Assembly (NCBI GenBank): GCA_018712545.1
Contig: DVGV01000008.1
Location: 1 to 64,000 of the forward strand
Direction of reading: 5' to 3'
DNA: 64,000 bases
Source of the DNA: Candidatus Coprenecus merdigallinarum
Lineage (GTDB): Bacteria > Bacteroidota > Bacteroidia > Bacteroidales > UBA932
Position numbers and translations under genes: made by a program. Positions 10,846 through 40,401 of the stretch are shown here, piece after piece. The notes beneath the pieces were generated by a model that did no database searches, was not told the origin of the DNA, and saw only the letters and a program-made list of their open reading frames with translations. How positions within the stretch are numbered: position 1 is the first letter of the stretch; each line of letters starts with the position of its first letter.

Positions 10846-10869
10846 ATTTTCGTGCACGTGCACGAAAAT
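10846..10869. promoter_or_regulatory. Perfect 24-bp palindrome: candidate operator of the LacI-family regulator
   Basis: ATTTTCGTGCAC is followed directly by its exact reverse complement. The 14-bp centre is made of two overlapping CGTGCACG units. LacI-family proteins bind even palindromes with a central CpG or GC step, and here the centre step is C-G. It lies between the divergent kdgK and LacI-family genes. It covers the expected -33 of the kdgK promoter and abuts that of the regulator, so it would control both. Close relatives occur at 15350-15373 and 40378-40401. Confidence 0.82.
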
Positions 10870-10895
10870 TTTTTCAGAAAACACTATTTATTTCA

Positions 10896-10903
10896 TATCT
10901 TTG
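10896..10903 (+). promoter_or_regulatory. -7 promoter box for the LacI-family gene
   Basis: TATCTTTG matches TAnnTTTG, 29 bases before the chosen ATG at 10933. The T-rich stretch right after the palindrome is at the -33 distance. Confidence 0.6.
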
Positions 10904-10932
10904 TACCGTAAGACTTGTATTACGTATTTTAT

Positions 10933-11997
10933 ATGGAAGAAGACAACAAGAAAATAACAATATCCGATGTGGCCAAGCTTGCCGGTGTGTCCAAGGGAAC
11001 TGTGGACAGAGTGCTGCACGACCGCGGCGGGGTATCCCGCAAGAGCATGGAGAAAATACGCCAGGTCATAGACGAGCTGGGCTACGAGCCGAATGTCTAC
11101 GCCTCCATGCTGGCCATGCGTAAGGAGCACGTCATAGCCTGCATCCTGCCGGACAGCATAAAGGACGATTACTGGTATCTGGTGCGCGAGGGGGTTGAGA
11201 AAGGCGGGGAGAATATCGCCTCGATGAATATCCGGACCCGGATTTTCCTGTACGACCAGTACAGTCCCGAGTCGTTCCGCAAGGCCGGTATGCAGCTTCT
11301 GGAAAGCAATCCGTCCGGGGTAGTGCTGCCTCCCTTTTTCAAGAACGACGCCTATACTCTCGCGAACGCCCTCAGCCTCCGCGGCATCCCCTACGTGTAC
11401 GTGGACTCCAAGCTGGAGGATGACGGACATTTCGCATATTACGGCATGCCCATGTACAAGAGCGGGTATCTCTGTGCCCGCCTGCTCACTCTTCGGGTTG
11501 CGCCCAAGCAGCTGAAAGGTGTACTGGTGGTCAGGATTATACGCGACAAGATGCGTCAGTCCGACCCTACGCTCAACCGCCGCTCAGGCTTCCTGGACTA
11601 CATGGCCGAGCACTATCCCTCCTGCGGGATCCATAATCTGTTCATTGACCCCCAGGCTCCCAAGGATACTGAACGTCAGCTCAACACATTCTTCAAGGCC
11701 CATCCGGGAATACGTCACATAGTGATGTTCAACTCGCGTGTGCACCTGCTGTCGGACTACCTGTCCCGGAATCCGGATCCGGACCGGGTCGTAGTCGGCT
11801 TCGACAACCTGGAAAAGAATCTCAGTGCGCTGAGCGCAGGACTCGTAAGCGTCCTTATCTGTCAGCACACAGATCTTCAGTCCTATAATGCGGTAATGGC
11901 CCTTTCGGACTATATCATAAAGCACAAGCGCCCGGAGAGAAAGGACAATTTCATGCACATGGACATACTCACTTCCCTCAACATCGACAACTACTAA
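10933..11997 (+). CDS. LacI-family transcriptional regulator, likely of uronate and pectin genes
   Basis: The 354-residue protein starts MEEDNKKITISDVAKLAGVSKGTVDRVLHDRGGV, a classic LacI N-terminal HTH with hinge (ELGYEPNVYASMLA). A periplasmic-binding-protein-like ligand domain follows (about 65-350). An upstream TTG at 10915 would add six residues, but ATG at 10933 fits better behind the -7 box at 10896-10903. The recognition helix residues (KGTVDR) differ from the common TVSR version. It lies between the two uronate operons and next to a perfect palindrome, so it probably represses them and itself. The inducer is not known; KDG or a related keto-uronate would be logical. Confidence 0.85.
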   Translation: MEEDNKKITISDVAKLAGVSKGTVDRVLHDRGGVSRKSMEKIRQVIDELGYEPNVYASMLAMRKEHVIACILPDSIKDDYWYLVREGVEKGGENIASMNIRTRIFLYDQYSPESFRKAGMQLLESNPSGVVLPPFFKNDAYTLANALSLRGIPYVYVDSKLEDDGHFAYYGMPMYKSGYLCARLLTLRVAPKQLKGVLVVRIIRDKMRQSDPTLNRRSGFLDYMAEHYPSCGIHNLFIDPQAPKDTERQLNTFFKAHPGIRHIVMFNSRVHLLSDYLSRNPDPDRVVVGFDNLEKNLSALSAGLVSVLICQHTDLQSYNAVMALSDYIIKHKRPERKDNFMHMDILTSLNIDNY

Positions 11998-12097
11998 CCG
12001 CCGGCCCTTTTCAGCCTTTGAATGCTGACTAGATTTTCCAGGGATGATGGCCTGTCTACTAACTACTTGAAAGAAAGTGAATTGACATTTTAAGCCT
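11998..12097. other. Non-coding spacer after the LacI-family gene
   Basis: About 100 bases between the regulator stop codon and the interlocked repeat. No open frame with coding character, promoter box or clear hairpin is seen here. Confidence 0.4.
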
Positions 12098-12141
12098 CCG
12101 CCGTAAGCGTTTTGAAAAGCCTTACGGCGGGCTTTTCAAAA
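12098..12141. repeat. Interlocked inverted repeats (pseudoknot order)
   Basis: Four adjacent segments occur in the order A-B-A'-B'. A is CCGCCGTAAG (12098-12107), B is TTTTGAAAAGC (12110-12120), A' is CTTACGGCGG (12121-12130) and B' is GCTTTTCAAAA (12131-12141). A pairs perfectly with A' (10 bp) and B with B' (11 bp), but the pairs interleave. Transcribed RNA could form an H-type pseudoknot, or one of two mutually exclusive hairpins. It may serve as the terminator of the LacI-family gene, or be a mobile-element relic. The strand of action is unknown. Confidence 0.7.
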
Positions 12142-12229: not shown

Positions 12230-12356
12230 TAAAAGCGTAATAAAAGGGGCAAAATGCAAGGCGTTGAGGTTCACGGCGAAGGAGTTTACTTAACGTAAAT
12301 GACTGAGCCGTGATACCGAAAACAACGCAGCAGTTTGCCCTTTTATTACGCTTTTA
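12230..12356. repeat. 127-nt compound palindrome overlapping the uxaA stop codon
   Basis: The outer arms are TAAAAGCGTAATAAAAGG.. (12230-12253) and its complement (12334-12356), a 23-bp stem with one bulged G. Inside lie four nested helices: TGC/GCA (12255/12330), GCGTTG/CAACGC (12261/12323), TCACGGC/GCCGTGA (12271/12307) and TTTAC/GTAAA (12285/12295) with loop TTAAC. The last three bases of the right arm are the stop codon of uxaA, read on the minus strand. It could terminate the uxaB-uxaA message and slow transcription from the regulator side. It also looks like a MITE-like dispersed repeat. I have a memory of similar segments in other Bacteroidales genomes but cannot verify it here. Confidence 0.75.
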
Positions 12357-13850
12357 GAGGGTGACGCCGGACTTGAAGATGGCAATCTCGCGGAAATCCG
12401 ACATCTCATTGTTCACCGGCTCGCCCGAGGCAACCTTCAGCACGTAGTGAATGAACTTCTGCAGGAGCTCGTCCCTGGATGTGCCCTCTACGAGCACGCC
12501 GGCGTTGAAGTCTATCCACAGCGGCTTGCGCTCGGCCAGCGGGGTGTTGGTGGATACCTTCATCGTAGGCACGTAGGTCCCGAAGGGAGTGCCGCGTCCG
12601 GTCGTGAACAGCACTATCTGGCATCCGGCAGAGGCGAGGGCAGTAGCTGCCACGAGGTCGTTGCCCGGAGCGCTGAGCAGGTTCAGCCCCTTGATGCTCA
12701 GGCGGTCACCGTACTTGAGGATGCCGTGTACAGTGGATTTGCCGGACTTCTGGGTGCATCCCAGGGATTTCTCCTCCAGGGTGGATATGCCGCCGGCCTT
12801 GTTGCCCGGGGATGGGTTCTCATAGACAGGCTGGCCGTTGCGGATAAAGTACTCCTTGAAGTCGTTGATCATGGATACCAGCGAATCGAATGTGGGGCGG
12901 TCGCAGCAGCGGTTCATCAGCAGGGTTTCCGCACCGAACATCTCCGGTACCTCGGTCAGGACGGTGGTGCCTCCCTGAGAGACAATCCAGTCGGAGAACA
13001 GGCCGAGGAGGGGATTGGCGGTGATGCCGGAGAGACCGTCGGAGCCTCCGCACTTGAGGCCCACTTTAAGCTCAGATACAGGCACATCCTCTCTTCTGTC
13101 ATTGCGGCAGGCTTCAAAGATGCCGCGGAGCTGCTCCAGACCGTAATCTATCTCGTCGCCCTCGACTTTCTGAGTCTCCATGAAGCGGACACGGGCGGAG
13201 TCCACGGGACCGGTCAGTTCGCGGAAAGCGCTCATCTGGTTGTTCTCGCAGCCGAGTCCTACGACCAGTACACCGCCGGCATTGGGATGCAGGACCATGT
13301 CCCTGAGAATCTTGCGGGTATTCTCATGGTCGTCGCCCAGCTGGGAGCAGCCGTAGTTGTGGGGAAATGCCACCACGGCGTCCACGCTGCCCTCCTGGCC
13401 TTCAATTTCCTTGCGGAACAGTTCCTCGAGCCGTTCCACCGTGCCGTTCACGCAGCCTACGGTGGGTATGATCCAGATCTGATTGCGGATACCTACATTC
13501 CCGTTGCTGCGGCGGAAACCTTTGAATGTAAGCTTTTTCTCTGCTTCCGGAATCTCAGTAAGCGCTGGGGTGTAGGTGTATTCCAGCAGACCTTCAAGAT
13601 TGGTCCTGAGCTTCGAGTGGTCGATGCGGGTGCCTGCTGGGGCATCGGCGGTCAGGTGACCTATCGGGAAGCCGTATTTTATCACATTGTCTCCGGTGTG
13701 CAGGTCCCTGAGGGCAAATTTATGTCCTGCCGGTATGTCCTCCGACAGGGTGAGCTGCAGCCCGTCCACCCCGACTGTCTCTCCAGCGGAGAGGGGATGT
13801 ACGGCTACGGCCACATTGTCGGCTGAGTTAATTTTTATGTATCTGTCCAT
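12354..13850 (-). CDS. uxaA: Altronate dehydratase
   Basis: The 498-residue protein removes water from D-altronate to give KDG. An N-terminal SAF-type domain (about 1-95; GFPIGHLTADAPAGTRI near 60) is followed by the galactarate/altronate dehydratase core: GFRRSNGNVGIRNQIWIIPTVGCVN, then FPHNYGCSQLGDDHE, LGCENNQ and LKCGGSDGLSG. Conserved Cys residues fit an iron-dependent dehydratase. Length matches UxaA. It follows uxaB with a 15-base gap. The stop codon TAA falls within the right arm of the large palindrome; the C-terminus (IFKSGVTL) nevertheless looks intact. Confidence 0.93.
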   Translation of the reverse strand: MDRYIKINSADNVAVAVHPLSAGETVGVDGLQLTLSEDIPAGHKFALRDLHTGDNVIKYGFPIGHLTADAPAGTRIDHSKLRTNLEGLLEYTYTPALTEIPEAEKKLTFKGFRRSNGNVGIRNQIWIIPTVGCVNGTVERLEELFRKEIEGQEGSVDAVVAFPHNYGCSQLGDDHENTRKILRDMVLHPNAGGVLVVGLGCENNQMSAFRELTGPVDSARVRFMETQKVEGDEIDYGLEQLRGIFEACRNDRREDVPVSELKVGLKCGGSDGLSGITANPLLGLFSDWIVSQGGTTVLTEVPEMFGAETLLMNRCCDRPTFDSLVSMINDFKEYFIRNGQPVYENPSPGNKAGGISTLEEKSLGCTQKSGKSTVHGILKYGDRLSIKGLNLLSAPGNDLVAATALASAGCQIVLFTTGRGTPFGTYVPTMKVSTNTPLAERKPLWIDFNAGVLVEGTSRDELLQKFIHYVLKVASGEPVNNEMSDFREIAIFKSGVTL

Positions 13851-13865
13851 AATGCAGTTATGCCA

Positions 13866-15302
13866 CTACAGGATTTCCTCTACCGCGGCGCGCATGCCCT
13901 TGGCGGCTATCTTCTCCAGGTCTGCTGTAAGCAGGTCGGTCAGGCCGGGAACTGCGTTGAGGTCCTCGTCCCAGATGTACTTCTCGGCGAGCACTCCCTC
14001 GGCTACCTTGCGGCAGTCGCCTGTGGCCCAGAGCTCTGTCAGGCGGTCGAGTATCTTCTGGTCATCGGCGGGGGTAATGGTGTCCTCACCGCGCTTGCCG
14101 CCCCTGTAGTAGGTGATGATGGCGGCCAGGCCGAATACCAGCCCCTGGGGGAGGTGCCCCTTGCGCTGTAGGAAAATCTTCACGCCCGGCAGGTCGCGGG
14201 TGCGGTATTTCGGGAAGGAATTGAGCATGATGCTGGTGACGAAATGCTTGACGTAGGGGTTGACGAAACGGTCGAGCACATCGCCGGCAAATTTTTCCAG
14301 TTCATCCTTCGGCAGGTCGAGGGTCGTGAGCAGCTCGTCGAACATCACCTTGCGCACGTAGCGTCCGATGAGGGGATCCTCGACGCATTCGCGGACGGTG
14401 TTCAGGCCGCTGAGATAGCCCACGGGGGAGAGAACGGTGTGGGGGCCGTTGAGCAGGGTGACCTTGCGCTCGTGGTAGGGTTTCTCGCTGGGCACGAAGA
14501 GCACGTGCAGTCCGGCCTTGTCGGCTGGGAACTCGGCGGCCACCTCGGCGGGAGCCTCGATTACCCACAGGTGGAAGATCTCGGCCTTCACCACCAGGCG
14601 GTCCTCATATCCGATGCGCTCCAGAATCTCGTTGATGGTATCCTTGGGATATCCGGGCACGATACGGTCTACGAGGGTGCAGTACACTCCGCAGGAGTTC
14701 TCGAACCAGCTCCTGAATCCTTCAGGAAGCTGCCACAGCTCGATGTATTTCTCTATGCATTTTTTCAATTCCTTTCCGTTCAGGAAGATAAGCTCGCAGG
14801 GGAAGATGATGAGTCCCTTGTCGGGAGCGCCCTTGAAGTACTCCCAGCGGTGGTACAGCAGCTGGACCAGCTTGCCAGGGTAGGAGGAGGCGGGGGCGTC
14901 GTCCAGCCTGCAGGCGGGGTCGAAGGCGATGCCGGCCTCGGTAGTGTTGGAGATAGCGAAACGTATCTCAGGCTGCTCGGCCAGTTTCATGTATGCGTCG
15001 AAGTCGCGGTAGGGGTTGATGCCGCGGCTGATGACGTCTATCATCTCTATCGAGTCCACCTGCCGGCCCTCGTCGATGCCCTGAAGGTTCAGGTCGTAGA
15101 GTCCGTCCTGCTCGTTGAGCATGTCCACCATGCCCTTTTCGATGGGCTGCACGACTACAACTGATGCGTTGAAATCGGTTTTCTGATTGGTCTTCCAGAT
15201 AATCCAGTCCACGAATGCGCGGAGGAAGTTGCCCTCGCCGAACTGAATCACTTTCTCAGTGTAGGTGCGGGCCTTGACAGTTGAACGGTTTAATCTTTCC
15301 AT
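13866..15302 (-). CDS. uxaB: Tagaturonate reductase (altronate oxidoreductase)
   Basis: The 478-residue NAD-dependent polyol dehydrogenase family protein reduces tagaturonate to altronate. It starts MERLNRSTVKARTYTEKVIQFGEGNFLRAFVDWIIWK, the Rossmann start typical of UxaB/mannitol dehydrogenases. TLLNGPHTVLSPVGYLSG and NPYVKHFVTSIMLNSFPKY carry the family catalytic Lys/His region. It is first in uxaB-uxaA. Its promoter is divergent from uxaC, and the gap carries a CGTGAACGTGCACG core near-identical to the palindrome at kdgK. This order also makes its product the substrate of the next gene. Confidence 0.93.
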   Translation of the reverse strand: MERLNRSTVKARTYTEKVIQFGEGNFLRAFVDWIIWKTNQKTDFNASVVVVQPIEKGMVDMLNEQDGLYDLNLQGIDEGRQVDSIEMIDVISRGINPYRDFDAYMKLAEQPEIRFAISNTTEAGIAFDPACRLDDAPASSYPGKLVQLLYHRWEYFKGAPDKGLIIFPCELIFLNGKELKKCIEKYIELWQLPEGFRSWFENSCGVYCTLVDRIVPGYPKDTINEILERIGYEDRLVVKAEIFHLWVIEAPAEVAAEFPADKAGLHVLFVPSEKPYHERKVTLLNGPHTVLSPVGYLSGLNTVRECVEDPLIGRYVRKVMFDELLTTLDLPKDELEKFAGDVLDRFVNPYVKHFVTSIMLNSFPKYRTRDLPGVKIFLQRKGHLPQGLVFGLAAIITYYRGGKRGEDTITPADDQKILDRLTELWATGDCRKVAEGVLAEKYIWDEDLNAVPGLTDLLTADLEKIAAKGMRAAVEEIL

Positions 15303-15337
15303 GATATCGTTAAATATTGGTTTGTCACGTTTTCGTG

Positions 15338-15345
15338 CAAAATTA
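15338..15345 (-). promoter_or_regulatory. -7 promoter box for uxaB-uxaA
   Basis: The minus strand reads TAATTTTG (TAnnTTTG). The operator-like site at 15350-15373 starts 4 bases further upstream and covers the -33 distance. An extra half-site TTTTCGTGCA sits at 15330-15339. Confidence 0.6.
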
Positions 15346-15349
15346 CAAA

Positions 15350-15373
15350 AAAATCGTGAACGTGCACGGTTTT
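15350..15373. promoter_or_regulatory. Operator-like site in the uxaB/uxaC gap
   Basis: The 14-base centre CGTGAACGTGCACG (15355-15368) differs from the kdgK palindrome centre by one base; the A/T flanks are less conserved (16 of 24 bases overall). It is placed to overlap the -33 of uxaB and lies close upstream of the uxaC promoter, so one bound dimer could control both. Confidence 0.7.
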
Positions 15374-15398: not shown

Positions 15399-15406
15399 TA
15401 CATTTG
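15399..15406 (+). promoter_or_regulatory. -7 promoter box for uxaC
   Basis: TACATTTG matches TAnnTTTG, about 43 bases before the uxaC start codon. The operator-like core ends 31 bases upstream, near its -33 region. Confidence 0.55.
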
Positions 15407-15448: not shown

Positions 15449-16852
15449 ATGGCTTCATTCATCCACAAAAACTTCATGCTCAGCAATGGCACAGCTGAGG
15501 AACTCTATCACGAAAGTGCTGAGAAACTGCCGATTATAGATTATCACTGTCATTTGGTACCCAAGATGATAGCCGAGAACTACCAGTTCCGCGACATCAC
15601 CGAGCTCTGGCTCGGAGGCGACCATTACAAATGGAGAGCCATGCGCGGCAACGGTGTGCCCGAGGAGTACATCACCGGCTCCCGTACCCCCTTCGAGAAG
15701 TTCAGCAAGTGGGCTGAGACCGTGCCTTACACGATGCGCAATCCCCTTTATCATTGGACCCACCTGGAGCTGGCCCGTGTCTTCGGCATCCATGACCTGC
15801 TTAAGCCGGAGAATGCCAGGGAAATCTTCGACCGCTGCAACGAACTTTTAGCCACGGAGGAGTTCCGCGCCCAGGGCCTGATGAAGCGTTTCAACGTAGA
15901 GGTGGTCTGCACCACCGATGATCCCGCCGACTCCCTGGAGTATCACAAGGCCATCATGGACAAGCCCTTCGGAGTGAAGGTCCTGCCTGCCTGGAGGCCC
16001 GACAAGGCCATGGCAATCGAGAATCCCGAGGCCTACATCAAGTATATTGAGAGCCTCGGAGCAGCTGCCGGTATGGAAATCCGCACCTACGACGACCTGC
16101 TGGAGGCCCTGCAGCGCCGCCACAACTTCTTCGCCTCGATGGGCTGCCGTCTCTCCGACCACGGTCTGGAAACATTCTATGCCGCAGATTACACCCAGAA
16201 GGAGGTGGATAAGATCTTCCGCAACACTCTCGACGGCAAAACTCCCGACGCCGAGGAACTGGATAAGTTCCGCAGCGCGATGCTCTATGACTTCGCAGCC
16301 ATGGACGCCGCCAGCGACTGGACCCAGCAGTTCCACGTGGGAGCTATCCGCAACAACAATTCCCGCATGATGGCCCAGCTCGGTCCCGACACCGGCTACG
16401 ACTCTATCCACGACGTACACTGCGCCGCCGCCGGCAACCGTCTCCTCGACCGTCTGGCCTCGGAAGGCAAGCTGGCCAAGACTATCCTCTACTGCCTGAA
16501 CCCCGGAGACAACGAGGTGCTCACCACCATGGCCTACAACTTCAACGACGGCACCGTGCCCGGCAAGATGCAGTTCGGCTCCGGCTGGTGGTTCCTGGAT
16601 CAGGAGGACGGCATGCGCAAGCAGATGAACGCTCTGAGCGCCCTCGGTCTTTTCAGCCGTTTCGTGGGCATGCTCACCGACTCCCGCAGCTTCATCTCCT
16701 ATCCCCGCCACGAGTATTTCCGCAGAATCCTCTGCAGCGTGATAGGCGAGGATGTGGAGAGCGGACGTCTGCCCAAGAGCGAGATGCCCCGGATCCATCA
16801 GATGGTCCAGGACATCTCCTACTACAACGCCAAAAACTTTTTTAATTTCTAA
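15449..16852 (+). CDS. uxaC: Glucuronate/galacturonate isomerase
   Basis: The 467-residue amidohydrolase-fold enzyme converts galacturonate to tagaturonate (and glucuronate to fructuronate), the first step of the pathway. The opening FIHKNFMLSNGTAEELYHESAEKLPIIDYHCHLVP carries the HxH motif. ELWLGGDHYKWRAMRGNG and CTTDDPADSLEYH are family blocks, and FVGMLTDSRSFISYPRHEYFRRIL is the conserved C-terminal block. Length is normal. It is divergent from uxaB-uxaA across a 146-base gap with an operator-like site. It ends at a strong terminator shared with the convergent GH43 gene. Confidence 0.95.
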   Translation: MASFIHKNFMLSNGTAEELYHESAEKLPIIDYHCHLVPKMIAENYQFRDITELWLGGDHYKWRAMRGNGVPEEYITGSRTPFEKFSKWAETVPYTMRNPLYHWTHLELARVFGIHDLLKPENAREIFDRCNELLATEEFRAQGLMKRFNVEVVCTTDDPADSLEYHKAIMDKPFGVKVLPAWRPDKAMAIENPEAYIKYIESLGAAAGMEIRTYDDLLEALQRRHNFFASMGCRLSDHGLETFYAADYTQKEVDKIFRNTLDGKTPDAEELDKFRSAMLYDFAAMDAASDWTQQFHVGAIRNNNSRMMAQLGPDTGYDSIHDVHCAAAGNRLLDRLASEGKLAKTILYCLNPGDNEVLTTMAYNFNDGTVPGKMQFGSGWWFLDQEDGMRKQMNALSALGLFSRFVGMLTDSRSFISYPRHEYFRRILCSVIGEDVESGRLPKSEMPRIHQMVQDISYYNAKNFFNF

Positions 16853-16853
16853 C

Positions 16854-16896: not shown

Positions 16897-16928
16897 GGAC
16901 CTGTCCGGATAGGGCAGGTCCTTTTTTT
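16897..16928 (+). terminator. Rho-independent terminator of uxaC
   Basis: GGACCTG pairs with CAGGTCC around an 11-nt loop, followed by seven T. The T-tract overlaps the stop codon of the convergent GH43 gene. Confidence 0.9.
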
Positions 16929-18582
16929 ATTGTACCTCGAGGATGTCGAGGGTTCCGCCGTCGTTCTTCTGAATGAATGCGGTGGCGAAGCAGCCGGTCT
17001 TGGCTCCGACCCAGCGTCCGGCCCGGGCGGTGAATGTCTCGCCGATGGGACGGAAGCGCTTGCCGTCGGTGCTGTAGGAGAATGTGCAGACCGAGCGGCC
17101 GTCTATCTCGACGCGGAGGACAATGCCGGGGACGGAGACACCGCTGCCGGAGGAGGGCTGCAGGTCTTCGGGACCGAAGAGGAGGATACGGGCGGTCTCT
17201 GTCTCGGAGGCTCCGGTGTCGGCTCCCTCACAGATGCCGTGGGTCAGGTATACGGAGCCGTCCTCGTAGAGCAGGCTCAGGGCGGCGTAGCTCTCGCCCA
17301 TGACGGTGATGCCGGCGCGGTCACCCCCGTAGGAGGGGTGGAAGTTCAGACGGGCGGTGAAGGAGTCTTCCGGGCCAATGAGCTTGCGCAGCAGCAGGGC
17401 GGGGGAGTCCCAGAGGCTCCGCGAGCCTTCGGGCAGGGGACGGCAGATGAGGCGTAGGCTGCCTTCCGAGGGATTTAGAAAATATTGTCCCACAGCCGGA
17501 TTGGCGGGCCACTGCCAGATAGGGGAGAGTTCCGTGGCGGTGAAGCTGTCGGAGCGTTCCAATGCGTCGGGACCCTTCAACTGCCGGGCGGAGGCGGATA
17601 CGGGAGGACATTGCCATGAAGAGACGGGCTCGCCGGTGCCGTCGCCGTCGGGGTCGGTGCCCATAACGCACCAGCCTTCATCATCCCAGGTCATGGGCTG
17701 GAGATGGACCACCCTTCCGTAGGCGTAGCGGTCCTCGAAGTGGAGGAACCAGTGGCCGCCCTCAGTGTCCTCAACCCATGCGCCCTGATGGGGGCCGTGG
17801 ATGGCTGTGGAGCCCTGGGCCAGGACATTGCGGTACTCGTAGGGTCCGGTGACGCTGCGGGAGCGGAGGACGAGCTGCCACCCTTCCTTGACTCCCCCGG
17901 CCGGAGCGAAAATGTAGTACCATCCGTCGCGTTTGTAGAATTTCGGTCCTTCTACGGTGGGATTGCCGTTGTGCTTGCCGTCGAAGATGAGGATCTCCTC
18001 GCCGACGGGGCCACTGCAGTCCGGAGCCAGCTCGCGGAGGGAGAGGACGCTTTTGAATCCAGCCCTGCTGCCGGCCCAGCCGTGTACCAGCCATACCCTT
18101 CCGTCATCGTCCCAGAGGGGGCAGGGGTCGATCATGCCGCGGCCTTCGATGACCAGATGCGGCGTGCTCCATTGTCCTGCCGGATCTTCGGCTGTGATGC
18201 AGTATATGCCGCGGTCGGGGTCGCCCCAGAATATCCAGTAGAGGCCGTCGTGGTGGCGGATGGCGGGGGCCCAGACACCGTTGCCGTGAGAGGGCAGCGC
18301 AAAATCCTCCTCAGGGCTCATCCTGGGCAGGGCGGCATTGACTATCTTCCAGTGCACTAAGTCGGCCGAGTGCAGGATCTGCAGGCCGGGCACGTGGTTG
18401 AACGAGGAGGCGGTCATCCAGTAGTCGCCGCCGACCCGTATGGCGTCGGGGTCGGAGTAGTCGGCGTGGAGTATCGGGTTGGTGTAGGTGCAGGTATCGG
18501 GGATGATGTCCCGTGCTGCAGCGGGAGTGTCTGTAACGGCAGCTGTCAAGGCGGCCAGCGCCAGCATGGTAAGAGTCTTCAT
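16927..18582 (-). CDS. Glycoside hydrolase family 43 (arabinosidase/xylosidase-like)
   Basis: The 551-residue protein has a signal peptide (to about residue 23, TPAAARD), then a five-bladed propeller domain. The start TYTNPILHADYSDPDAIRVGGDYWMTASSF is typical of GH43. Likely catalytic residues are D44 (base), D152 in MIDPCP and E211 in TVEGPKF (acid). The C-terminal 200 residues form a beta-sandwich of the type seen in larger GH43 enzymes, resembling subfamily 12. It would trim arabinose or xylose side chains, which fits a pectin or hemicellulose diet. It lies between the uronate operons and the main pectin locus, but no operator-like site is visible upstream. Confidence 0.88.
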   Translation of the reverse strand: MKTLTMLALAALTAAVTDTPAAARDIIPDTCTYTNPILHADYSDPDAIRVGGDYWMTASSFNHVPGLQILHSADLVHWKIVNAALPRMSPEEDFALPSHGNGVWAPAIRHHDGLYWIFWGDPDRGIYCITAEDPAGQWSTPHLVIEGRGMIDPCPLWDDDGRVWLVHGWAGSRAGFKSVLSLRELAPDCSGPVGEEILIFDGKHNGNPTVEGPKFYKRDGWYYIFAPAGGVKEGWQLVLRSRSVTGPYEYRNVLAQGSTAIHGPHQGAWVEDTEGGHWFLHFEDRYAYGRVVHLQPMTWDDEGWCVMGTDPDGDGTGEPVSSWQCPPVSASARQLKGPDALERSDSFTATELSPIWQWPANPAVGQYFLNPSEGSLRLICRPLPEGSRSLWDSPALLLRKLIGPEDSFTARLNFHPSYGGDRAGITVMGESYAALSLLYEDGSVYLTHGICEGADTGASETETARILLFGPEDLQPSSGSGVSVPGIVLRVEIDGRSVCTFSYSTDGKRFRPIGETFTARAGRWVGAKTGCFATAFIQKNDGGTLDILEVQ

Positions 18583-18627
18583 GGGGCGAAGTTAGTGAAA
18601 ATATGGGAATAAATCCCTCAAAATGCG

Positions 18628-18635
18628 TATATTTG
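18628..18635 (+). promoter_or_regulatory. -7 promoter box for the PEP-synthase-like gene
   Basis: TATATTTG matches TAnnTTTG. It overlaps the first codons of the longest possible frame (ATG 18623), which argues that translation starts downstream. Confidence 0.5.
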
Positions 18636-18661
18636 AACCTCTTATATCAACGATACCGCAC

Positions 18662-28689: not shown

Positions 28690-28707
28690 CGGAAAATAAT
28701 TTGACTG

Positions 28708-30525: not shown

Positions 30526-30537
30526 ATCTGTGTCTTG

Positions 30538-33500: not shown

Positions 33501-33744
33501 TCTTCATTCCGATGAAGATAAACTGCAGGCTGGAGGTATTGATGTCAGGCACTTCGATGACATACGAACCGTCCAGGTCTGTCTGAGTTCCAACAGTGGT
33601 TCCGTCGACAATGACGCTGACGCCGGGCAGGGGCTCACCGTTTATGTCGGAGACCACTCCTTTCACTTCCTGTGCGTACAATGCCGTGGACATGCACAGC
33701 AGTGCCGCCAGAAGAAAGCAGAGCTTTGAAGATAATTCTCGCAT
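30538..33744 (-). CDS. susC: SusC-like TonB-dependent outer-membrane transporter
   Basis: The 1068-residue protein has a signal peptide (to about 24), a CarboxypepD_reg-like domain (about 26-100; EVKGVVSDINGEPLPGVSVIV), a TonB-box region (DETVVIGYATVKRRDLLGSVS) and a plug domain (about 120-235; YGSRGANGVVIITTKSGEKG). A beta-barrel follows, ending NLTF. It imports oligosaccharides across the outer membrane using TonB energy. It stands fifth in the operon, behind four enzymes, while susC usually leads such loci. There is only a 35-base gap behind the PL1 gene and no separate promoter box. Confidence 0.95.
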   Translation of the reverse strand: MRELSSKLCFLLAALLCMSTALYAQEVKGVVSDINGEPLPGVSVIVDGTTVGTQTDLDGSYVIEVPDINTSSLQFIFIGMKTLTIPVNGRTTIDVTMEEDVTMLDETVVIGYATVKRRDLLGSVSSISSEKITEQPVTSVSQALTGRMAGVSVTTTEGDPDADIKIRVRGGGSITQDSSPLYIVDGFPVDNINDIAASEILSMDVLKDAFSTAIYGSRGANGVVIITTKSGEKGRKITVSVNAYYGQKWMANRDAIRTMDSENFVKFQYELGMIRDNITDNYEPYFGSFDDIDLYYGLPTNDWVGMVFGNTGQTWNTDITLSGGGENYTWTLGYAHMDDQAIMIGSSYSRDNLNLKAQFKPVKALTFDVNVRYSNMQTRGSGANSMNDAGSTSGNGRLKHAVSYTPIPISSSIQNVDLEEDYGDNAPPLLSVADNDTKRIRTQWNANAAMTWEILPNLRLKIEGGLQDFRQKDNRFYGLTTYYVANTATYKNLPASRYTDRSYQRYRNTNTLSYDFSDIIKDDRHVLNFILGEEMIITKENQITAMVENFPASFDSDMAWNFMSTGTPISYEDYYDPEDRLLSGFIRANYEFDRRYSIGATFRADGSSKFGPGNRWGFFPSAAASWRISAEPWMQGASGWLDELKLRYSYGTAGNNNIPANQINRVYNGSSTSWISMGNTYYTTGTVMSNPDLKWETTMTHNIGLDFSFFQGRLAGSVEVYQNDTKDLLIEFPIAGSGYETQYRNIGSTRNRGIEVSLNLPIVRKQNFDLSFNANISFNQNRVTSLGGLDRIEYATQWASTEIGTDYIVEVGRPIGSMYGYRNDGRYEVDDFNYIDGEWVLKEGVADASAIIGSDYLRPGALKLKDLDGDGVITTADKEVIGDANPLFAGGFSLSGYVYGVDFSANFAYSYGNDVYNANKIEFTSSRKYYNRNLIQMMNVENRWTNIDWKTGELVTDPEALAAMNAGTTMWSPAVGNAVFSDWAVEDGSYLRLQSATIGYTFPEKWTSKAYIRKLRIYATGTNLFCWTNYSGFDPEVDTRRDTPLSPGVDYSAYPRSIGFVFGINLTF

Positions 33745-33779
33745 AAGACGATTTGTTTGTATGGTTAATAAATGAAAAT

Positions 33780-35639
33780 TTAGTTAATAATATCCTTTAC
33801 CAGGTAGTGGAGCCAAAGCTCGAGGTTGGTGTAGCGGCCGGTGGGGTCGAGAGTTTTCGCGGAGCCGTCGGCCGGGTTGTTCCTGTCCAGGTCGAACCTG
33901 TCCTCCCAGTCATCGGGAATGCCATCACCGTCGGTATCGGTCCAGGGCTCGCCGGAGGCGTATTCGGGCCAGCCTCCTACATCGTTCTGTGAGTCGATGA
34001 TGCCGCCGTCGGAGCCTTTGGAACCGGTGAAGGTGTATGCCCCTTCTCTGGTTTCCCGGACAATTCTTCCGTCGACCTCATCCCTGACCAGGGATGCACC
34101 GGCATGGCTGAGGACACTTTCATATGCATCCCCGGCTGACTGGATGTCGATATAGGAACCGTTGTATGATATGTCGAAGGGGGAGTTGGAGCGGATGCCC
34201 GAGATATCGCCGCCTGGCAGGGACGCATTCCCGGTGTTTGGGTGGATGCCGGCCCAGTTGTCGGTGTTGACCTCATCGATGAGGTACAGGTAGTCATCGC
34301 GGAGCTCGGGTGACGAGCCGTCAAACCAGTTGTCGGCTACGTAGAACTTTCCCCAGACTCCCTTTGCGTTGGTGTTCGACCCGTCGTCGGCATTGGGGCT
34401 GAATATCCTGTTGACCAGGACTTTCTTCTCATTTGTGGCCGCTCCGGGCTTGTAGTAGTTGGCTATGAAATTGAAGGAACCGCCCTCGCCGGCATATCCG
34501 GAGTTGTCGGGACCCCAGTTGTAGAATACGTTGTTGACCAGCTCGGTCCTCTCATTCTCAGGCACGCCTGTGTAGCGGCTGCCGCAGAGACGGGGATTGC
34601 GGCTGGAGTTGTGGGCGATCAGGTTGTGGTGGAAGGATGCCGGGGTACCGCCCCAGATGCCCGCGTAGCCGTGATTGCCTTTGGGGTGAACGGAGTTTTT
34701 CAGACTTTCGCTGATGATGCACCACTGCATTGTGAAGTTGGTGTTGTCATAGGCGGAGGCGCATTCGTCCGTGCTCCAGCTGAAGGAGCAGTGGTCGATG
34801 ATGATGTTGCTGTGCTCCCGGATGAAGATGCCGTCTGCGTCTTTCTCCGAAGAGCCGTTGCCGTCACCGGTCCTTACGCGTATGAAGCGGATTATGACGT
34901 TGTCGGCCTTGACGTTTAGGGGATATCCCGCCAGGCAGATGCCGTCGCCGGGAGCGGTCTGGCCGGCGATAGTGATGTCGCCGTCATTGATGTCCAGACT
35001 GCGGGAGAGATGTATCACTCCGCTCACGTCGAAGACGATGGTGCGGGGCCCTTCATGGTCGACGGCCCAGCGGAATGATCCGGTGCCGTTGTCATTGAGA
35101 TTGGTCACGCGGTATACCTTCCCTCCGCGTCCTCCTGTGGTGAACATTCCGCAGCCCTGGGCTGTCGGGAATGCCCTTACAAGACCGTCGTTCTCATCCT
35201 CGGGGAGACCCAGTTCGGCGATGAGGTCGTCTCCGACGTCGGGAGGCTCGGGAAGTCCTCCCGGGGTGCCGGTAACCGGCTCGGAGTATTCCGATTCGAA
35301 GGTGCCGTTGTGGCTGGCGACTGAGAAACTATAGGTTGTTCCCGTGGTGAGGTCTGAAACGGTGACTGTGGTGTCGCGTGTGGAACTGGCCGAATGACGG
35401 GTGCTGTCCGCCTCGAGCAGTCTCCAATAGTAGTAGTCAGCCTCATCCACAGGACTCCATGCAAAAGTCAGGGATGTTTCTGAATAAGAGACCAGACGTA
35501 CGTTCCTGGGCACTCCGTCCGTCTCCCCGCCATCGGGTACAGGGGTCTTGTCGCATCCGCAGAACAGGACTGACGGAACCGCCACGAGCGAGGCAATGGT
35601 GGAGAACCTCCAGAAGTTAAATTTACTGAACTTTTTCAT
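33780..35639 (-). CDS. Pectate lyase, polysaccharide lyase family 1, with fibronectin III domain
   Basis: 619 residues from [12 protein letters not shown], a lipoprotein signal (VLFCGCDK). The longer frame to 35675 would overlap the GH105 gene and is rejected. An FnIII domain (about 30-115) is followed by a PL1 beta-helix: [35 protein letters not shown] and [10 protein letters not shown]. These carry the calcium-site acidic residues and the catalytic Arg region. The C-terminal [14 protein letters not shown] is a calcium-binding thrombospondin-3-like repeat. It cuts polygalacturonan by beta-elimination and feeds the GH105-KduI-KduD branch. Confidence 0.9.
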
Positions 35640-35649
35640 ATCTCTGCTG

Positions 35650-36897
35650 CTAATTAAAAAGTCTGTCGTATTCAAGACTTGCGTTGATGTAGGGACCTAT
35701 TCCCTTGGGATCGTTGCTGCGTCTCTTTTCATTGATGTAGTAGTCGTAGTCGCCGCTGCGGTTCTCCTTGCCGCCGAGTCCCGCCACCTCGCAGCAGTCC
35801 TTGATGGCGGGCAGGCCCTGCTCATCGGTGTAGAGGAAATAGTCGAGGAAGCCCTCGTAGGTGCTCCTGGCCCAGTCCTTGAGATCGGGGGAGAGGTAGC
35901 CCATGCGCACTCCCTTGAGGAGGGAGTAGGAGAACATGGCGGAGCAGGTGGCCTCGAGGTAGTTGCCCTCGCGTCCGGGGCAGTCGAGGACCTGGTACCA
36001 CATGCCTGTGGCGGGGTCAGCGTAGTCGGGCAGTACTTCGTAGATGCCCTGCAGTATGGCGATGAGGGAGTCGCGTCCCTCGGTCCCGGCCGGAATGTAG
36101 TCCAGGGCATCCACAATGCCCATGGTGTACCAGCCCAGGGCCCTGCCCCAGGCGTGGTCGGACTGACCGGTGAGGGAGTCGCTCCAGAACATCTGCCTTG
36201 ACTCGTCCCAGGCATGGCGGTAGAGGCCGGTGGCGGGGTCGTAGGTGTGCCTGGCCACGGTAAGGAAATGATTGATGACGTCCCTGTAGATGGAGTCTCT
36301 GTCTTCAGGGGCGTCGTAAAGGGTCGCATAGTGGGCGTAGAAGGGCTGGGCCATGTACAGGCCGTCCAGCCACATCTGATGGGGGTAGGTCTGCTTGTGC
36401 CAGAAGCCGCCCTCGGAGGTGCGGGGATGGTCCTTGAGCTGGTCGCGCAGGGTCTGCATGGCGGTCATCCAGCGGGCGTCGCCGGTGCGGTCGTAGAGGA
36501 CGAAGAGGGCGTTGCCGGGGCAGACGTGGTCGGTGTTGAAGTTGGACTTCTTGTACTTGTAGATGACGCCGGCGGTGTCCACCGCTCTTTCGTACCAGTC
36601 CTGCACGTAATCGAAAATGTCCTGATACCCGGGAGCCTCGCCGTATGCCTCCCATACTTCGAGGAAGGACATCAGCTCGAGGCCGGTGGTGTAGTTCCAC
36701 TTGAGCCGTCCCTCCATCCCGTCGAGGTATGTGCCGTCGGGGCAGCGGGTCATCTCGGCGCGGACCATGCTCAGGGCATTGGCCTTGCCGTCAATGCGGG
36801 AGCTCCCTGATGAGCAGGATGCGCTCAGCAGGAGGAGTGTTCCTGCCGCCGCTGCTGTGATTATTGATAATATTGATAATGTAGTGTACCGTTTCAT
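35650..36897 (-). CDS. Unsaturated rhamnogalacturonyl hydrolase, family GH105
   Basis: The 415-residue protein has a lipoprotein-type signal (Cys28 in LLSASCSS). The (alpha/alpha)6 barrel motifs are [18 protein letters not shown] (D123/H124), [12 protein letters not shown] with the catalytic D178, and [14 protein letters not shown] near 255. These match GH105 enzymes that hydrate the double bond of unsaturated uronides made by lyases, releasing 5-keto-4-deoxyuronate for KduI. It sits 21 bases after the CE12-CE8 gene and 10 bases before the PL1 gene. Confidence 0.92.
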
Positions 36898-36918
36898 ATT
36901 GTCCTTGCTTGTATTGTC

Positions 36919-38643
36919 CTACCTGTTGTCCTCGGGGTTCCAGGCCCTGGTGTCGGTGTCCTGGTGCATTACCTTCTCAAAGGTGTATTCGGCCGCCTGC
37001 TTCCTGGTCAGCTGGGTAGACCATTTTACCCTGGTGTCAGGAGAGGCGCCGGGACCGTAGCTGCCGTACTCCGCGTAGAATGCGGTGCCCTCACCGGAGG
37101 GCCAGAGTTCCCGGGGCCAGCTCTTCCAGCCGTCGGGATGGATGTGGGAGCCGAGCTCGCAGTCGATGAAGACGGTGTTGGCGTAGGGCCTCCAGGGACG
37201 GCCGAGGTAGACCTTGTCCACGCCCTCGGCGGCGGTCAGGCGGCAGTTGTGGAAGACGTAGCCGTATTTCTGGCCTTCGGGGGTGGAGGCTGCCGTCACG
37301 TAGCTGTTCTTCTTGCTGTGTATAGTACAGTTCTCGAAGTAGGCGACGGAGGGGCCGAAGATGAAGTCGGTGGTGCCCTCGATGTAGCAGTTCAGGAAGT
37401 AGTTGCGGCAGGGACCGCCTTCCTTGTTCCAGCGTCCGTAGGTGTAGATGGTGTCCTGGTTGGCGATGATGCGGCAGTTCTTGAAATAGATGCAGTCGCC
37501 GTTGGTGAAGAGGGCCACTGCCTGGCCTATCTCCTTGCCCTCGCCGGCGGGGTTGAGTATCGTGAGGTTCTCGACGGTCACGTAGGAGGAGTGGATGTAG
37601 AACCCGGCGCTGCCCGATGTGCCGACATTGAAGTCTCTGCCGGGCCACATCTGTTTGGCGTACTTGCCGCAGGAAATGACGGTGCTGTCGGCGCTCTCAC
37701 CGATGATGTGGAGGCGGAACTTGTTGTGGGGGATGGTTACCATCTCGTTGTAGACCCCGTTGCGGATCAGGATCCTGGTAATCTCCTCGTGGGAGTAGTC
37801 GGGGCAGGCGTCGATGGCTTCCTGCACTGTGAAGTAGTCGCCGGTACCGTCCTGGGCCACTACGATATCGTAGTAGACGAAGTGGCGGGCTATCTCGGGA
37901 AGCTGCTTGGCTATCTCGCCGCAGATCAGACTTGCTACCTTGCGGGCACCCCTGGCGTTGGTATGGGTGTTGTCGGTCTTGCCCTCGGGCATGGCGGGAA
38001 CCGTGCCGGGTGCGACCCACATGAAATATTCGCGTGAGGCGGTGTCACCCAGGCTCTTGAGCCAGTCCATGGTGACCTTGGTGATGTCGAGGAGGGTGAC
38101 ATTCTCCTGCTCTGCCACCTGCTTCATGGCCTGGGGATAGTCCTCCAGGCAGGTCTCGTCGAGGGTATCGGCCTTGAACCATCTGCGGGAGACGGGGGTG
38201 AGGAGGACGGGGGTGGCGCCTTTCTCGCGGGCTACCTTTATATAGTGGCGCAGGTTGTCCTGGTAGGCTCCCCATGCGGCGGCGTAGCGGGTGGTGTCGG
38301 ACTGCTTGGAGTCATTGTGCCCGAACTGGATGAAGAGGTAGTCCCCCTTCTTTAGATTGGCCTCGACCTTGGCCCAGTGGCCCAGGGTCATGAAACTCTT
38401 GGTGCTGCGGCCGTTGTGGGCGTAGTTGATGACATTGACGCTGTCATCCAGGAAGTTGGGAAACATCATTCCCCAGCCACGCTCGGGGTTGCCTCCGCTC
38501 AGGTCCTTGGGGGCCATGGTGGAGTCGCCGATGAGGTGGATGGTGAAGCTGCTGCGCTCCTGTTCGGCAGAGGATGTCAGCAGGAGGGAGGCAGCGGCTG
38601 TTGCGAGGATGAGCGTAATAGTTCTGATTGTCGTCTTTATCAT
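36919..38643 (-). CDS. CE12-CE8 fusion: pectin acetylesterase plus pectin methylesterase
   Basis: The 574-residue protein has a signal peptide, then an SGNH acetylesterase domain (about 33-250; GDST with S41, and D224/H227 in DNTHTNARGA). A pectin methylesterase beta-helix (about 258-565) follows. CE8 residues are QDTIY (D397), TTDFIFG (D426) and YLGRPWR (R482, W484). One polypeptide thus removes both acetyl and methyl groups from galacturonan before lyase and GH28 cutting. The two domains are usually separate genes, but such fusions are known in gut Bacteroidota. It lies 62 bases after the GH28 gene. Confidence 0.93.
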   Translation of the reverse strand: MIKTTIRTITLILATAAASLLLTSSAEQERSSFTIHLIGDSTMAPKDLSGGNPERGWGMMFPNFLDDSVNVINYAHNGRSTKSFMTLGHWAKVEANLKKGDYLFIQFGHNDSKQSDTTRYAAAWGAYQDNLRHYIKVAREKGATPVLLTPVSRRWFKADTLDETCLEDYPQAMKQVAEQENVTLLDITKVTMDWLKSLGDTASREYFMWVAPGTVPAMPEGKTDNTHTNARGARKVASLICGEIAKQLPEIARHFVYYDIVVAQDGTGDYFTVQEAIDACPDYSHEEITRILIRNGVYNEMVTIPHNKFRLHIIGESADSTVISCGKYAKQMWPGRDFNVGTSGSAGFYIHSSYVTVENLTILNPAGEGKEIGQAVALFTNGDCIYFKNCRIIANQDTIYTYGRWNKEGGPCRNYFLNCYIEGTTDFIFGPSVAYFENCTIHSKKNSYVTAASTPEGQKYGYVFHNCRLTAAEGVDKVYLGRPWRPYANTVFIDCELGSHIHPDGWKSWPRELWPSGEGTAFYAEYGSYGPGASPDTRVKWSTQLTRKQAAEYTFEKVMHQDTDTRAWNPEDNR

Positions 38644-38705
38644 GGTTCTATGGTCAGTTACAGCGTTCGTGCCGTACCGGCTGTATCAGTCGGTACGGCT
38701 TTCGG

Positions 38706-40337
38706 TTACTTTTCGGTATATTCGTAATTCTCAACTTTGTATGTGATGACGGGCTCTCCCTCCTCAGGATGAATCGTCACGTTGGTAAGGGTCACGTCCT
38801 TGGAGAAGCATATCTGTGCTCCGGTGCGGCTGGAGATGACGCAGTCGGTGACATGGATGTTGGAGACGGGCATCTCCGGCAGGCCGTTGAAGTACATGGC
38901 GCGGGAGGCTCCGTTGCAGACTACGCGCTCGATGTAGATGTCGCGGAACTCCGGAGTGGTCTCGTCCACGGGCATGGGCTCGGGCTCCTTGTAGTTACTC
39001 TGCTGTTTCATGGCGTCTACTGCGGACATGTTGCCGTAGAAGAGGTCGAAGAGCAGGGGCTCGGTTACGATATCGGTCATGTAGATGTCCCGGATGAATA
39101 TGTTCCTGACTACGCCTCCGCGGCCTCTCTTGCTCTTGAAGCGCAGGCCTACGTCGGTGCCGAGGAAGCGGCAGTTGGACACTACTATGTTCTCGACCCC
39201 GCCGGACATCTCGCTGCCGACTACGAATCCGCCGTGGCCGTGGTAGACGAAGCAGTTGTCGATGAGCAGGTTCCTGGTGGGCATGGCCCTGCGGCGGCCG
39301 TCCTCGTCCTTGCCGGACTTGATGCAGATGCCGTCGTCACCTACGTCGAATGACGAATTGGTCAGGATTACGTTCTCACACGACTCGATGTCGATGCCGT
39401 CCCCGTTCTGGGAGTATGCCGGGTTGCGTACGACGATATCGTTCACGATAACGTTGGTGCACATCAGGGGATGTATGTTCCATGCGGGAGAATTCTGGAA
39501 TGTGGGGCCCTCGAGGAGGACGTTCTCGCACTCGCGGATGCTTACCATCACGGGACGGAGGAAGTCCCTGACGCTCTCCCAGAACTCGTCGTCGAACTCG
39601 CCGACAGGGACATTCAGGCCCTTGTCGCTGAGCTGCTCCGCGCGGATGTAGTCCTCGGACGGATACCAGGTGTTGCCCTTATCGTTGAGCACGCCGCCGG
39701 AGGCCACCTTTTCTTTCCACTGGGAAGACGTGACCTTGGATTTCTTCAAAGGTCTCCATGCGTCACCGGAGCCGTCGATCACTCCCTCGCCTGTGATGGA
39801 GATGTTTTTCTCCCTGTAGGCATTGATGGGAGAGGTGCAGCGGCGGGTGTCGAGTCCCTCGAAGGATGTCTCTATGATGGGATATAGGGTTTTGTCGGAA
39901 GAGAACAGGATGACCGCATTCTTGTCCAGATGCAGGTCAATGTTGCTTTTCAGAGTGATGGGGCCGGTGAGCCAGATGCCTGCGGGTACATCCAGATGGC
40001 CGCCTCCCTGTTTGGAAAGAGCGTCTATGGCGCGTGCGAATGCGGCTGTGTTGAGGGTGACTCCGTCTCCGGTGCCGCCGAAGTCGATAAGGGAAACGCG
40101 CCTGTCGGGGATGGAGGGCCTGGTCACGACAGGCATGCTGAAAGGAAGATTTTCATAAAGATAGGCGAATTCATAGCTTACGTCCGTGTTTGTTTCGGGC
40201 ACGTACACGGTGCCGACATGGGGGGCGGACATCCCCTGTGCTTCGGAAGAAGTGGCGCTAAGGGACGATCCCGTCATGCAGAATATGTAGATAGTTAATG
40301 CGTTAGCAAGACGCTTCAAAAGGCTGTAAGATTTCAC
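38706..40337 (-). CDS. Polygalacturonase, glycoside hydrolase family 28
   Basis: The 543-residue protein has a signal peptide and a GH28 right-handed beta-helix. Catalytic Asp residues appear in NGDGID (311-316) and VGDDGICIKSG (332-342), with GHGG (367-370) and the Arg/Lys pair in RFKSKRGRGG (399-408). It hydrolyses polygalacturonan, giving galacturonate for the Uxa branch; the extended N-terminal part (about 40-80) is common in exo-acting members. It is the first gene of the long minus-strand unit and carries the operator-like site in its promoter. Confidence 0.92.
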   Translation of the reverse strand: MKSYSLLKRLANALTIYIFCMTGSSLSATSSEAQGMSAPHVGTVYVPETNTDVSYEFAYLYENLPFSMPVVTRPSIPDRRVSLIDFGGTGDGVTLNTAAFARAIDALSKQGGGHLDVPAGIWLTGPITLKSNIDLHLDKNAVILFSSDKTLYPIIETSFEGLDTRRCTSPINAYREKNISITGEGVIDGSGDAWRPLKKSKVTSSQWKEKVASGGVLNDKGNTWYPSEDYIRAEQLSDKGLNVPVGEFDDEFWESVRDFLRPVMVSIRECENVLLEGPTFQNSPAWNIHPLMCTNVIVNDIVVRNPAYSQNGDGIDIESCENVILTNSSFDVGDDGICIKSGKDEDGRRRAMPTRNLLIDNCFVYHGHGGFVVGSEMSGGVENIVVSNCRFLGTDVGLRFKSKRGRGGVVRNIFIRDIYMTDIVTEPLLFDLFYGNMSAVDAMKQQSNYKEPEPMPVDETTPEFRDIYIERVVCNGASRAMYFNGLPEMPVSNIHVTDCVISSRTGAQICFSKDVTLTNVTIHPEEGEPVITYKVENYEYTEK

Positions 40338-40364
40338 GCGTGTCGAATTTAGTAATTACTGTTA

Positions 40365-40372
40365 CAAAGATA
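40365..40372 (-). promoter_or_regulatory. -7 promoter box for the pectin operon
   Basis: The minus strand reads TATCTTTG (TAnnTTTG), 27 bases before the GH28 start codon. The -33 distance falls inside the operator-like site at 40378-40401. Confidence 0.6.
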
Positions 40373-40377
40373 AGTAT

Positions 40378-40401
40378 ATTTCCGTTCCCGTGCACGAAAA
40401 T
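40378..40401. promoter_or_regulatory. Operator-like site upstream of the pectin operon
   Basis: It matches the kdgK palindrome in 21 of 24 bases; the right half (GTGCACGAAAAT) is exact and the left half has three changes. It begins 5 bases upstream of the -7 box. A further partial half (TGCACGG) lies at 40413-40419. Confidence 0.75.

Follow-up and report, generated by a model that had tools for sequence, protein, structure and literature searches.

In Bacteroides, UxaR (BT0824), KdgR (BT0487), and UxuR (BT1434) have been predicted to be LacI-family regulators of uronate catabolism (PMC3878776, PMC4052901), and the KdgR regulon is described as one of those that include a few genes for periplasmic or extracellular proteins (PMC3878776). 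For Bacteroides thetaiotaomicron, ManR (GntR family) and AraR (BT0354, NrtR family) have been predicted to control sugar catabolism together with an operon encoding a SusC/SusD pair (PMC3878776, PMC4666351). The pectin polysaccharide utilization locus (PUL) of Gramella flava holds SusCD, pectinases, uxaC, kdgK, eda, uxaA, uxaB, and an annotated exuR in one locus (PMC5306329). In Segatella copri, a LacI-like gene is located near aldolase and sugar-kinase genes that are induced on pectins; the LacI-like gene and an altronate dehydratase neighbour showed no rise on pectins (PMC11784079). In Thermotoga maritima, one factor of the GntR family, also named UxaR, covers pectinases, uptake, and uronate catabolism (including kdgAK) and binds DNA in vitro, with binding unaffected by the uronates tried (PMC3750489). 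Here we analysed 64,000 nucleotides of Candidatus Coprenecus merdigallinarum (Bacteroidales; GenBank assembly GCA_018712545.1, contig DVGV01000008.1, positions 1 to 64,000; hereafter, the window), in which a LacI-family gene, three operator-like sites, genes for uronate catabolism, and a pectin SusCD operon lie in one module. The LacI protein is predicted to bind the three operators and probably represses both the catabolic and the pectin genes until a uronate signal appears.

A LacI-family regulator and three operator sites

The regulator (354 aa; 10933–11997, plus strand) carries a LacI-type helix-turn-helix (HTH; PF00356, 59.5 bits against a cut-off of 27) and a Peripla_BP_4 sugar domain (PF13407), and it was the single protein returned by a PF00356 profile search of the assembled genome (87% complete). 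Its AlphaFold2 model (pLDDT 90) contains the HTH, a hinge helix, and a sugar-binding domain, with helices at 10–17, 21–28, 36–49, and 55–62, and Foldseek matched this model to LacI, PurR, and sugar-binding proteins. The closest solved structure was 3gbv, the ligand-binding domain of a LacI-family protein from Bacteroides fragilis (34% identity, TM-score 0.93 by target), for which the structure listing names neither function nor ligand. With its HTH and hinge helix, its periplasmic-binding-protein-like domain, and predicted operators of even length with a central CG, the protein fits the LacI/GalR family. The modelled chain ends with the sugar-binding domain and has no extra C-terminal helix for tetramers; the predicted regulator is therefore more likely to act as a dimer than to loop between sites.

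Operator 1 (10846–10869), in the gap between kdgK and lacI, is a perfect 24-bp palindrome; operator 2 (15350–15373), in the gap between uxaB and uxaC, has 13 of 14 core bases and is the weakest of the three; and operator 3 (40378–40401), in front of the GH28 gene, has 21 of 24 bases in common with operator 1. These values, and the position of lacI beside the perfect copy, agree with the original prediction, which had been made from the letters of this window. LacI-family operators are described as even palindromes with a central CG as a rule (PMC4052901), and all three sites have an even length and a central CG, with operators 2 and 3 being imperfect palindromes. Operators 1 and 2 are located upstream of galacturonate and 2-keto-3-deoxygluconate (KDG) catabolic genes, as in the Bacteroides UxaR/KdgR group.

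The specificity of these sites depends on their A/T-rich flanks. The 14-bp core by itself is without specificity; with three mismatches allowed it presented nine matches in the window, where shuffles gave 3.3 on average and 8 at most, and 134 genome-wide, compared to 78 with a reversed control. The A/T-flanked pattern is specific: with at most three mismatches, it was found at three places in the assembled 2.2-Mb genome, all of them in the window, and its reversed control presented no match in the same assembly. No match to operator 1 at the level of operator 3 was found in 100 shuffles of the window. A relaxed pattern with one mismatch identified operators 1 and 3 as well as one further place, on contig C68; this match, also present in G007 and G010, falls within coding sequence and was rejected as a fourth genomic site.

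Promoter boxes and operator spacing

Promoters in this phylum have TAnnTTTG as their −7 motif, paired with a −33 element. The three minus-strand boxes of the original prediction are present at 10825–10832 (kdgK, CAAAAATA / TATTTTTG), 15338–15345 (uxaB, CAAAATTA / TAATTTTG), and 40365–40372 (GH28 operon, CAAAGATA / TATCTTTG), with centres 29, 20, and 21 bp, respectively, from the centres of operators 1, 2, and 3. Plus-strand boxes were also found for lacI (10896–10903, TATCTTTG; 42 bp from the centre of operator 1) and uxaC (15399–15406, TACATTTG; 41 bp from the centre of operator 2). The operators had been placed over the expected −33 of the minus-strand promoters, and at kdgK, uxaB, and GH28 they do lie over the expected −33 or the spacer, a position that suits repression.

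We also surveyed 61 operator contexts for TAnnTTTG boxes within 15–60 bp, after removal of context duplicates and with related rows and some unassigned sites retained. Seventy-five boxes face outward from the operators and 10 face inward; 67 of the 75 outward boxes fall at three distances, 20–22 bp (19 boxes), 28–31 bp (35), and 40–43 bp (13), which differ by about one helical turn; this arrangement, too, suits repression.

Conservation within the genus

Lack of conservation in related genomes had been named as grounds for discarding the original prediction, which survived this test. Among 19 genomes of the genus, five presented operator sites, three each and at the same three promoters, and these same five carry the LacI gene (E ≤ 1e-40), GH28 (E ≤ 1e-60), and UxaC; no sites were found in the other 14 genomes, two of which presented one match each to the reversed control. 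The galacturonate/pectin module (LacI, GH28, UxaC) was likewise detected in 5 of the 19 genomes but not in the remaining 14, as though it had been gained or lost en bloc.

In alignments of the five genomes, 23 of 24 columns are invariant in each operator block, as compared to 60/109 in the remaining gap for operator 1 (Fisher p 1e-4), 88/122 for operator 2 (p 0.016), and 52/135 for operator 3 (p 9e-8); these p values are only a guide, since three of the five genomes are close relatives. Operator 3 presents the clearest conservation, with the block kept and the flank diverged. Two extra half-sites are kept as well. One, ATGCACG (40412–40418), is located 22 bp past the distal half of operator 3, and its TGCACG is kept in all five genus members, with diverged flanks; the other, TTTTCGTGCA (15330–15339), is located 21 bp from operator 2 and overlaps the uxaB −7 box, and it reads TTTYCGTGCA in all five. 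Decay was rejected as an explanation for the unlike half of the pectin-operon site, because CGTTACC/CGTTATC half-sites recur in relatives; no orientation rule is claimed for these half-sites, whose orientation to the gene is opposite in several loci.

Location of the regulator gene in relatives

We read 25 loci with a relative of this LacI (L019–L022 being the same records as the genus genomes G007, G010, G001, and G017). The LacI gene is divergent from GH28 in 13 of these loci (for L026, the GH28 end alone is visible), in most cases with esterase, GH88/105, lyase-like, and SusC genes next until the contig ends; it is divergent from kdgK in eight loci (four of them from the same genus), follows kdgK-kdgA-exuT in one, and has a different or cut-off neighbour in three. 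A site of the form TTYCGTKNNCGNNMACGRAA was found in 23 of the 25 loci, for a total of 25 sites, with none in matched genes and none with the reversed control; this 25 versus 0 is not independent, as the relaxed pattern was drawn after the gaps of L023–L043 had been read. The same operator, ATTTCCGTGCACGGTAACGGAAAT, adjoins kdgK in G058 and GH28 in G195.

In a tree of 47 proteins, from which eight repeated loci had been dropped and for which the root is unsure, a branch (99/95) separates the 17 proteins with a GH28 neighbour from the rest, among the kdgK neighbours, suggesting, most simply, a single relocation of the regulator gene. In L033, L068, and L072, another SusC-like gene is adjoined by a LacI of a second clade (about 50% identical), and the gap in L033 contains two closely spaced GTGCACGTGCAC-type sites; the LacI family to which this clade belongs may control further PULs.

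Operators at unlinked promoters and at GH28 genes across the family

Among 199 genomes surveyed in the family, 45 have a LacI relative (E ≤ 1e-40) and 36 a GH28 relative (E ≤ 1e-60). In the 26 genomes that, of these 45, have the closest LacI, 95 matches to the relaxed pattern were found, as compared to 12 for the reversed pattern; this count includes the LacI-side sites used for the pattern and, together with the unlinked promoters, provides a better test than the LacI loci. In several genomes, operators were found at orthologous promoters while the regulator is on another contig, so that the predicted conservation held beyond the linked genes. In G020, contig C6 carries LacI beside kdgK, and sites are present there at kdgK and at uxaB|uxaC; the pectin operon is on C4, where a separate site precedes GH28 by about 560 bp and a short GH43-like match intervenes. 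A further match in G020, on C1, is within a coding stretch and was not taken as a target. G074 has a single match to this LacI at E ≤ 1e-40, beside kdgK on C7, and sites at kdgK (C7), uxaB|uxaC (C1), and the pectin SusC (C4). G196 presents the mirror arrangement, with LacI at GH28 (C20) and an operator at kdgK|kduD (C25). These three genomes provide the best test of a predicted joint regulon.

Six g22 genomes have uxaB|uxaC operators apart from the regulator, on another contig in G191, G186, G074, and G148 and at 30 and 45 kb from it in G087 and G181. A second LacI, with about 30% identity, adjoins uxaC in G191 and G186, and additional LacI relatives occur elsewhere in G087 and G181; these four genomes therefore have more than one candidate binder for the uxaB|uxaC sites. 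In 20 chosen stretches, the site adjoins uxaB, uxaC, kdgK, kduI, kduD, or the pectin SusC in nine and is near other or unidentified genes in the remaining 11.

Thirty GH28 loci were read. An operator is present at GH28 in 13, all from genomes with a LacI at least 46% identical, and in none of the six genomes without such a LacI (G041, G040, G078, G131, G116, and G103); G174 was excluded from these six because its contig ends at the GH28 gene and the upstream DNA is absent from the contig. In four of seven g22 genomes read (G181, G119, G074, and G171), an operator is found at the start of SusC. In the g22 pectin operons of L119–L127 and L129, the esterase is followed by an extra open frame of about 1440–1510 aa, and GH28 lacks an operator; some of these operons have one at SusC.

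Proposed regulation and alternative explanations

We propose that a dimer of the LacI protein probably occupies the three operators and would repress its own gene, kdgK-kdgA-exuT, uxaBA, and uxaC, along with the predicted GH28-to-DUF4957 pectin operon. On release of the regulator by a uronate intermediate (galacturonate, tagaturonate, or KDG), uronate catabolism and pectin foraging would come on together. The sites, their position over promoter-like boxes, their conservation, their confinement to the module in the assembled genome, and the matching operators at unlinked genes are the observations behind this proposal, in which binding, repression over activation, the effector, and the extent of the operon are predicted. 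Beyond this, it is possible, and we suggest it tentatively, that this single LacI is the whole pectin switch and replaces the usual hybrid two-component sensor, so that surface SusCD answers to a cytoplasmic uronate intermediate; that, in one sister lineage, lacI left the kdgK operon and came to lie in front of the pectin operon, with operators persisting at both ends; and that the spacing between the operators and the −7 boxes is fixed and helically phased.

Several observations weigh against the proposal. Operator 2 scores 16/20 by half-sites (operators 1 and 3, 20 each), which ties with an intragenic place at 34674; its A/T flanks are in the opposite order (AAAA..TTTT), it has, by eye, four mismatches to the relaxed pattern, and its block is only mildly distinct from a well-kept gap. 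The all-or-none distribution of the module in the genus means that co-occurrence alone does not tie LacI to the sites. In the family, 23 GH28 genes come from genomes that also have a close LacI, and 10 of them, all in g22, have no GH28 operator; nine of these 10 GH28 genes are on another contig (G148, G181, G087, G074, G119, G039, G129, G191, and G186) and the tenth is in G171. The SusC-start operator is absent in three of the seven g22 genomes read (G087, G039, and G129), and three g14 genomes show only two sites, both between LacI and GH28. Joint control of catabolism and the pectin operon is thus not universal but, as predicted from the sites, one of several states in the family, and the window's genus has the predicted joint state.

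Ten g22 genomes lack the GH28 site, although sites at kdgK or uxaB|uxaC are retained among g22 genomes, as would be expected if this LacI served uronate catabolism only, with site 3 being minor and the pectin operon mainly under an AraC-type protein, an extracytoplasmic function (ECF) sigma factor, or a system encoded in the 13% of the genome that the assembly lacks. The rhamnogalacturonan loci of B. thetaiotaomicron have been assigned to hybrid two-component systems (PMC3878776), and potential regulators of other kinds do occur in this assembly: eight AraC-type proteins, one FecR anti-sigma protein on another contig, and two Y_Y_Y matches just under the cut-off, both in one 402-aa frame. However, none of the AraC-type frames exceeds 596 aa and no Y_Y_Y match is over the cut-off. 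Frames of up to 596 aa are too short for a hybrid two-component system, and no such system was found in the window, as originally stated, or in the genome as assembled. Site 3 is, moreover, the best-kept block of its intergenic region, and lacI itself stands divergent from the GH28 gene of such an operon in 13 of the 25 loci; we therefore consider separate control of the pectin operon unlikely. We judge it quite improbable that the same LacI acts on all three sites as an activator or dual regulator, with operators near −48 aiding RNA polymerase at lacI and uxaC. At these two genes the operator centre is 41–42 bp from the −7 box and upstream of the expected −33, and the spacing of about one helical turn between operator-box distances would fit such a role; at kdgK, uxaB, and GH28, in contrast, the centres are only 20–29 bp from the box, and all 12 Caldicellulosiruptor LacI/DeoR factors that were compared with mapped transcription starts overlap promoters or 5′ untranslated regions and are read as repressors (PMC8579813). 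It is extremely improbable that the sites act as transcription terminators or arose as palindromes by chance. A terminator scan does flag site 1 (a stem and a T-run), with 10 hairpins there as compared to 6.2 in shuffles, but site 1 is located between divergent genes, on which ground its reading as a terminator was rejected, and sites 2 and 3 are not flagged by the scans; the zero matches of the genome-wide control, the conservation, and the recurrence at the same promoters across genera argue against chance, and in our view this explanation is refuted by the distribution of the sites.

Gene content and operon extent

The module begins on the minus strand with a major facilitator superfamily (MFS) transporter (7550–9034; PF07690, TIGR00893 below cut-off), for which the name exuT-like is inferred from its neighbours. 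It continues with kdgA (9056–9736; aldolase for 2-keto-3-deoxy-6-phosphogluconate (KDPG) and 2-keto-4-hydroxyglutarate (KHG), NF005499 above cut-off) and a kdgK-like PfkB sugar kinase (9759–10799; PF00294); for the latter, the top NCBIfam match fell below cut-off and was to the kinase half of a fusion of KDPG aldolase and kinase. Beyond lacI (plus strand) are uxaA (12354–13850, minus; altronate/galactarate dehydratase family, PF20629 and PF04295), uxaB (13866–15302, minus; tagaturonate reductase, NF002969 above cut-off), uxaC (15449–16852, plus; uronate isomerase, PF02614), and a GH43 gene (16927–18582, minus). They are followed by a plus-strand gene (18623–21640) within the module that encodes a 1005-aa protein of pyruvate phosphate dikinase (PPDK) type; this protein has a response-regulator receiver domain N-terminal to a PPDK/phosphoenolpyruvate (PEP)-synthase N-terminal domain, and no match to it was found at the corresponding place in L022.

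The rest of the module is a minus-strand block that, from left to right, contains genes for a DUF4861 protein, kduI, and kduD, and then the genes of the predicted pectin operon: a DUF4957/DUF5123/FN3 protein, which is likely its last gene (24415–28689; PF17161, PF16318); a SusD-like lipoprotein (28708–30525; PF07980, PF14322); a SusC-like TonB-dependent receptor (30538–33744; PF00593, PF07715); a protein with FN3 and pectate-lyase-like regions (33780–35675; PF00041, NF041900 below cut-off); a GH88/GH105-like unsaturated uronyl hydrolase (35650–36897; PF07470); a GDSL esterase with a pectinesterase domain (36919–38643; PF13472, PF01095), which we take to be CE12/CE8-like; and, as first gene, a GH28 polygalacturonase-like protein (38706–40337; PF00295). 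With a SusC/SusD pair and carbohydrate-active enzymes, this locus is a PUL.

The pectin operon likely extends over 24415–40337. Its possible end is a terminator-like hairpin with TTTTT (24349–24377, minus) between the DUF4957/5123 gene and kduD, with a fold z of −1.5 and with 17 of 200 shuffles folding equally well; the region shows no excess of terminator-like hairpins (16, as compared to 14.8 in shuffles). As kduD-kduI-DUF4861 is behind this hairpin, and neither it nor GH43 has an operator of its own within the window, both were left out of the operon. The original prediction, by which one operator may cover the whole pectin locus, is accordingly narrowed: it is supported for the likely GH28-to-DUF4957 operon but is not extended to kduD-kduI-DUF4861 or GH43. 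On the other side, a second terminator-like hairpin (40438–40471, minus), found after the upstream efflux operon, would isolate the pectin promoter. Within the operon, the gap between GH28 and the esterase contains a strong hairpin (38671–38699; minus-strand z −3.9, 0 of 200 shuffles as stable), a possible processing or attenuation point. Near the end of the window (62656–63696), a tRNA-Arg (CCT) is followed by a convergent tyrosine recombinase gene.

Comparison with known systems

If the proposed regulation is correct, a cytoplasmic LacI protein ties surface pectin capture directly to uronate catabolism, by a simpler logic than that of membrane-bound hybrid sensors; the same logic is seen, by sequence, in relatives of Coprenecus and in rumen and gut Bacteroidales. 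The locus would also provide a regulon with exact predicted operators and a naturally occurring example of regulator-gene movement within a regulon.

Monosaccharide regulators over SusCD operons already have precedents. ManR and AraR represent such monosaccharide-level control in print, for mannosides and arabinan; they belong to other protein families and act on other sugars, and the AraR operon is under dual control by AraR and a hybrid two-component system. T. maritima UxaR presents the same logic as proposed here but is of an unrelated protein family, of which the window's regulator is not a member, and no SusCD is involved there. The G. flava locus similarly brings together pectin genes, uronate genes, and a hexuronate repressor gene; it is from a flavobacterium, and its published description gives neither operators nor the protein family of exuR. 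In titles and abstract openings, we found no published report of a LacI regulator of a SusCD pectin operon.

Within the Bacteroidales, order-level relatives of this LacI are 32–42% identical. In 12 of the 28 order-level loci read, LacI (34–39% identical, in other families) is located by uxaC and/or uxaB, and a related site, in many cases CGTGTNCG.ACACG, accompanies LacI in 10 of them (at most two mismatches, counted without a control); unlike the window, these loci have no GH28/SusCD linkage in the approximately 4 kb read. Bacteroides UxaR, KdgR, and UxuR resemble the window's regulator in being LacI-family proteins of Bacteroidales linked to glucuronate, galacturonate, and KDG catabolism, a likeness to BT0824 and BT0487 that is drawn from their published description. 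The window differs from them, as described, in that one LacI, the only one found, is predicted to control the kdg and uxa genes as well as a complete SusCD pectin operon. The regulator is thus most likely a UxaR/KdgR-type LacI repressor with a SusCD pectin operon in its predicted regulon.

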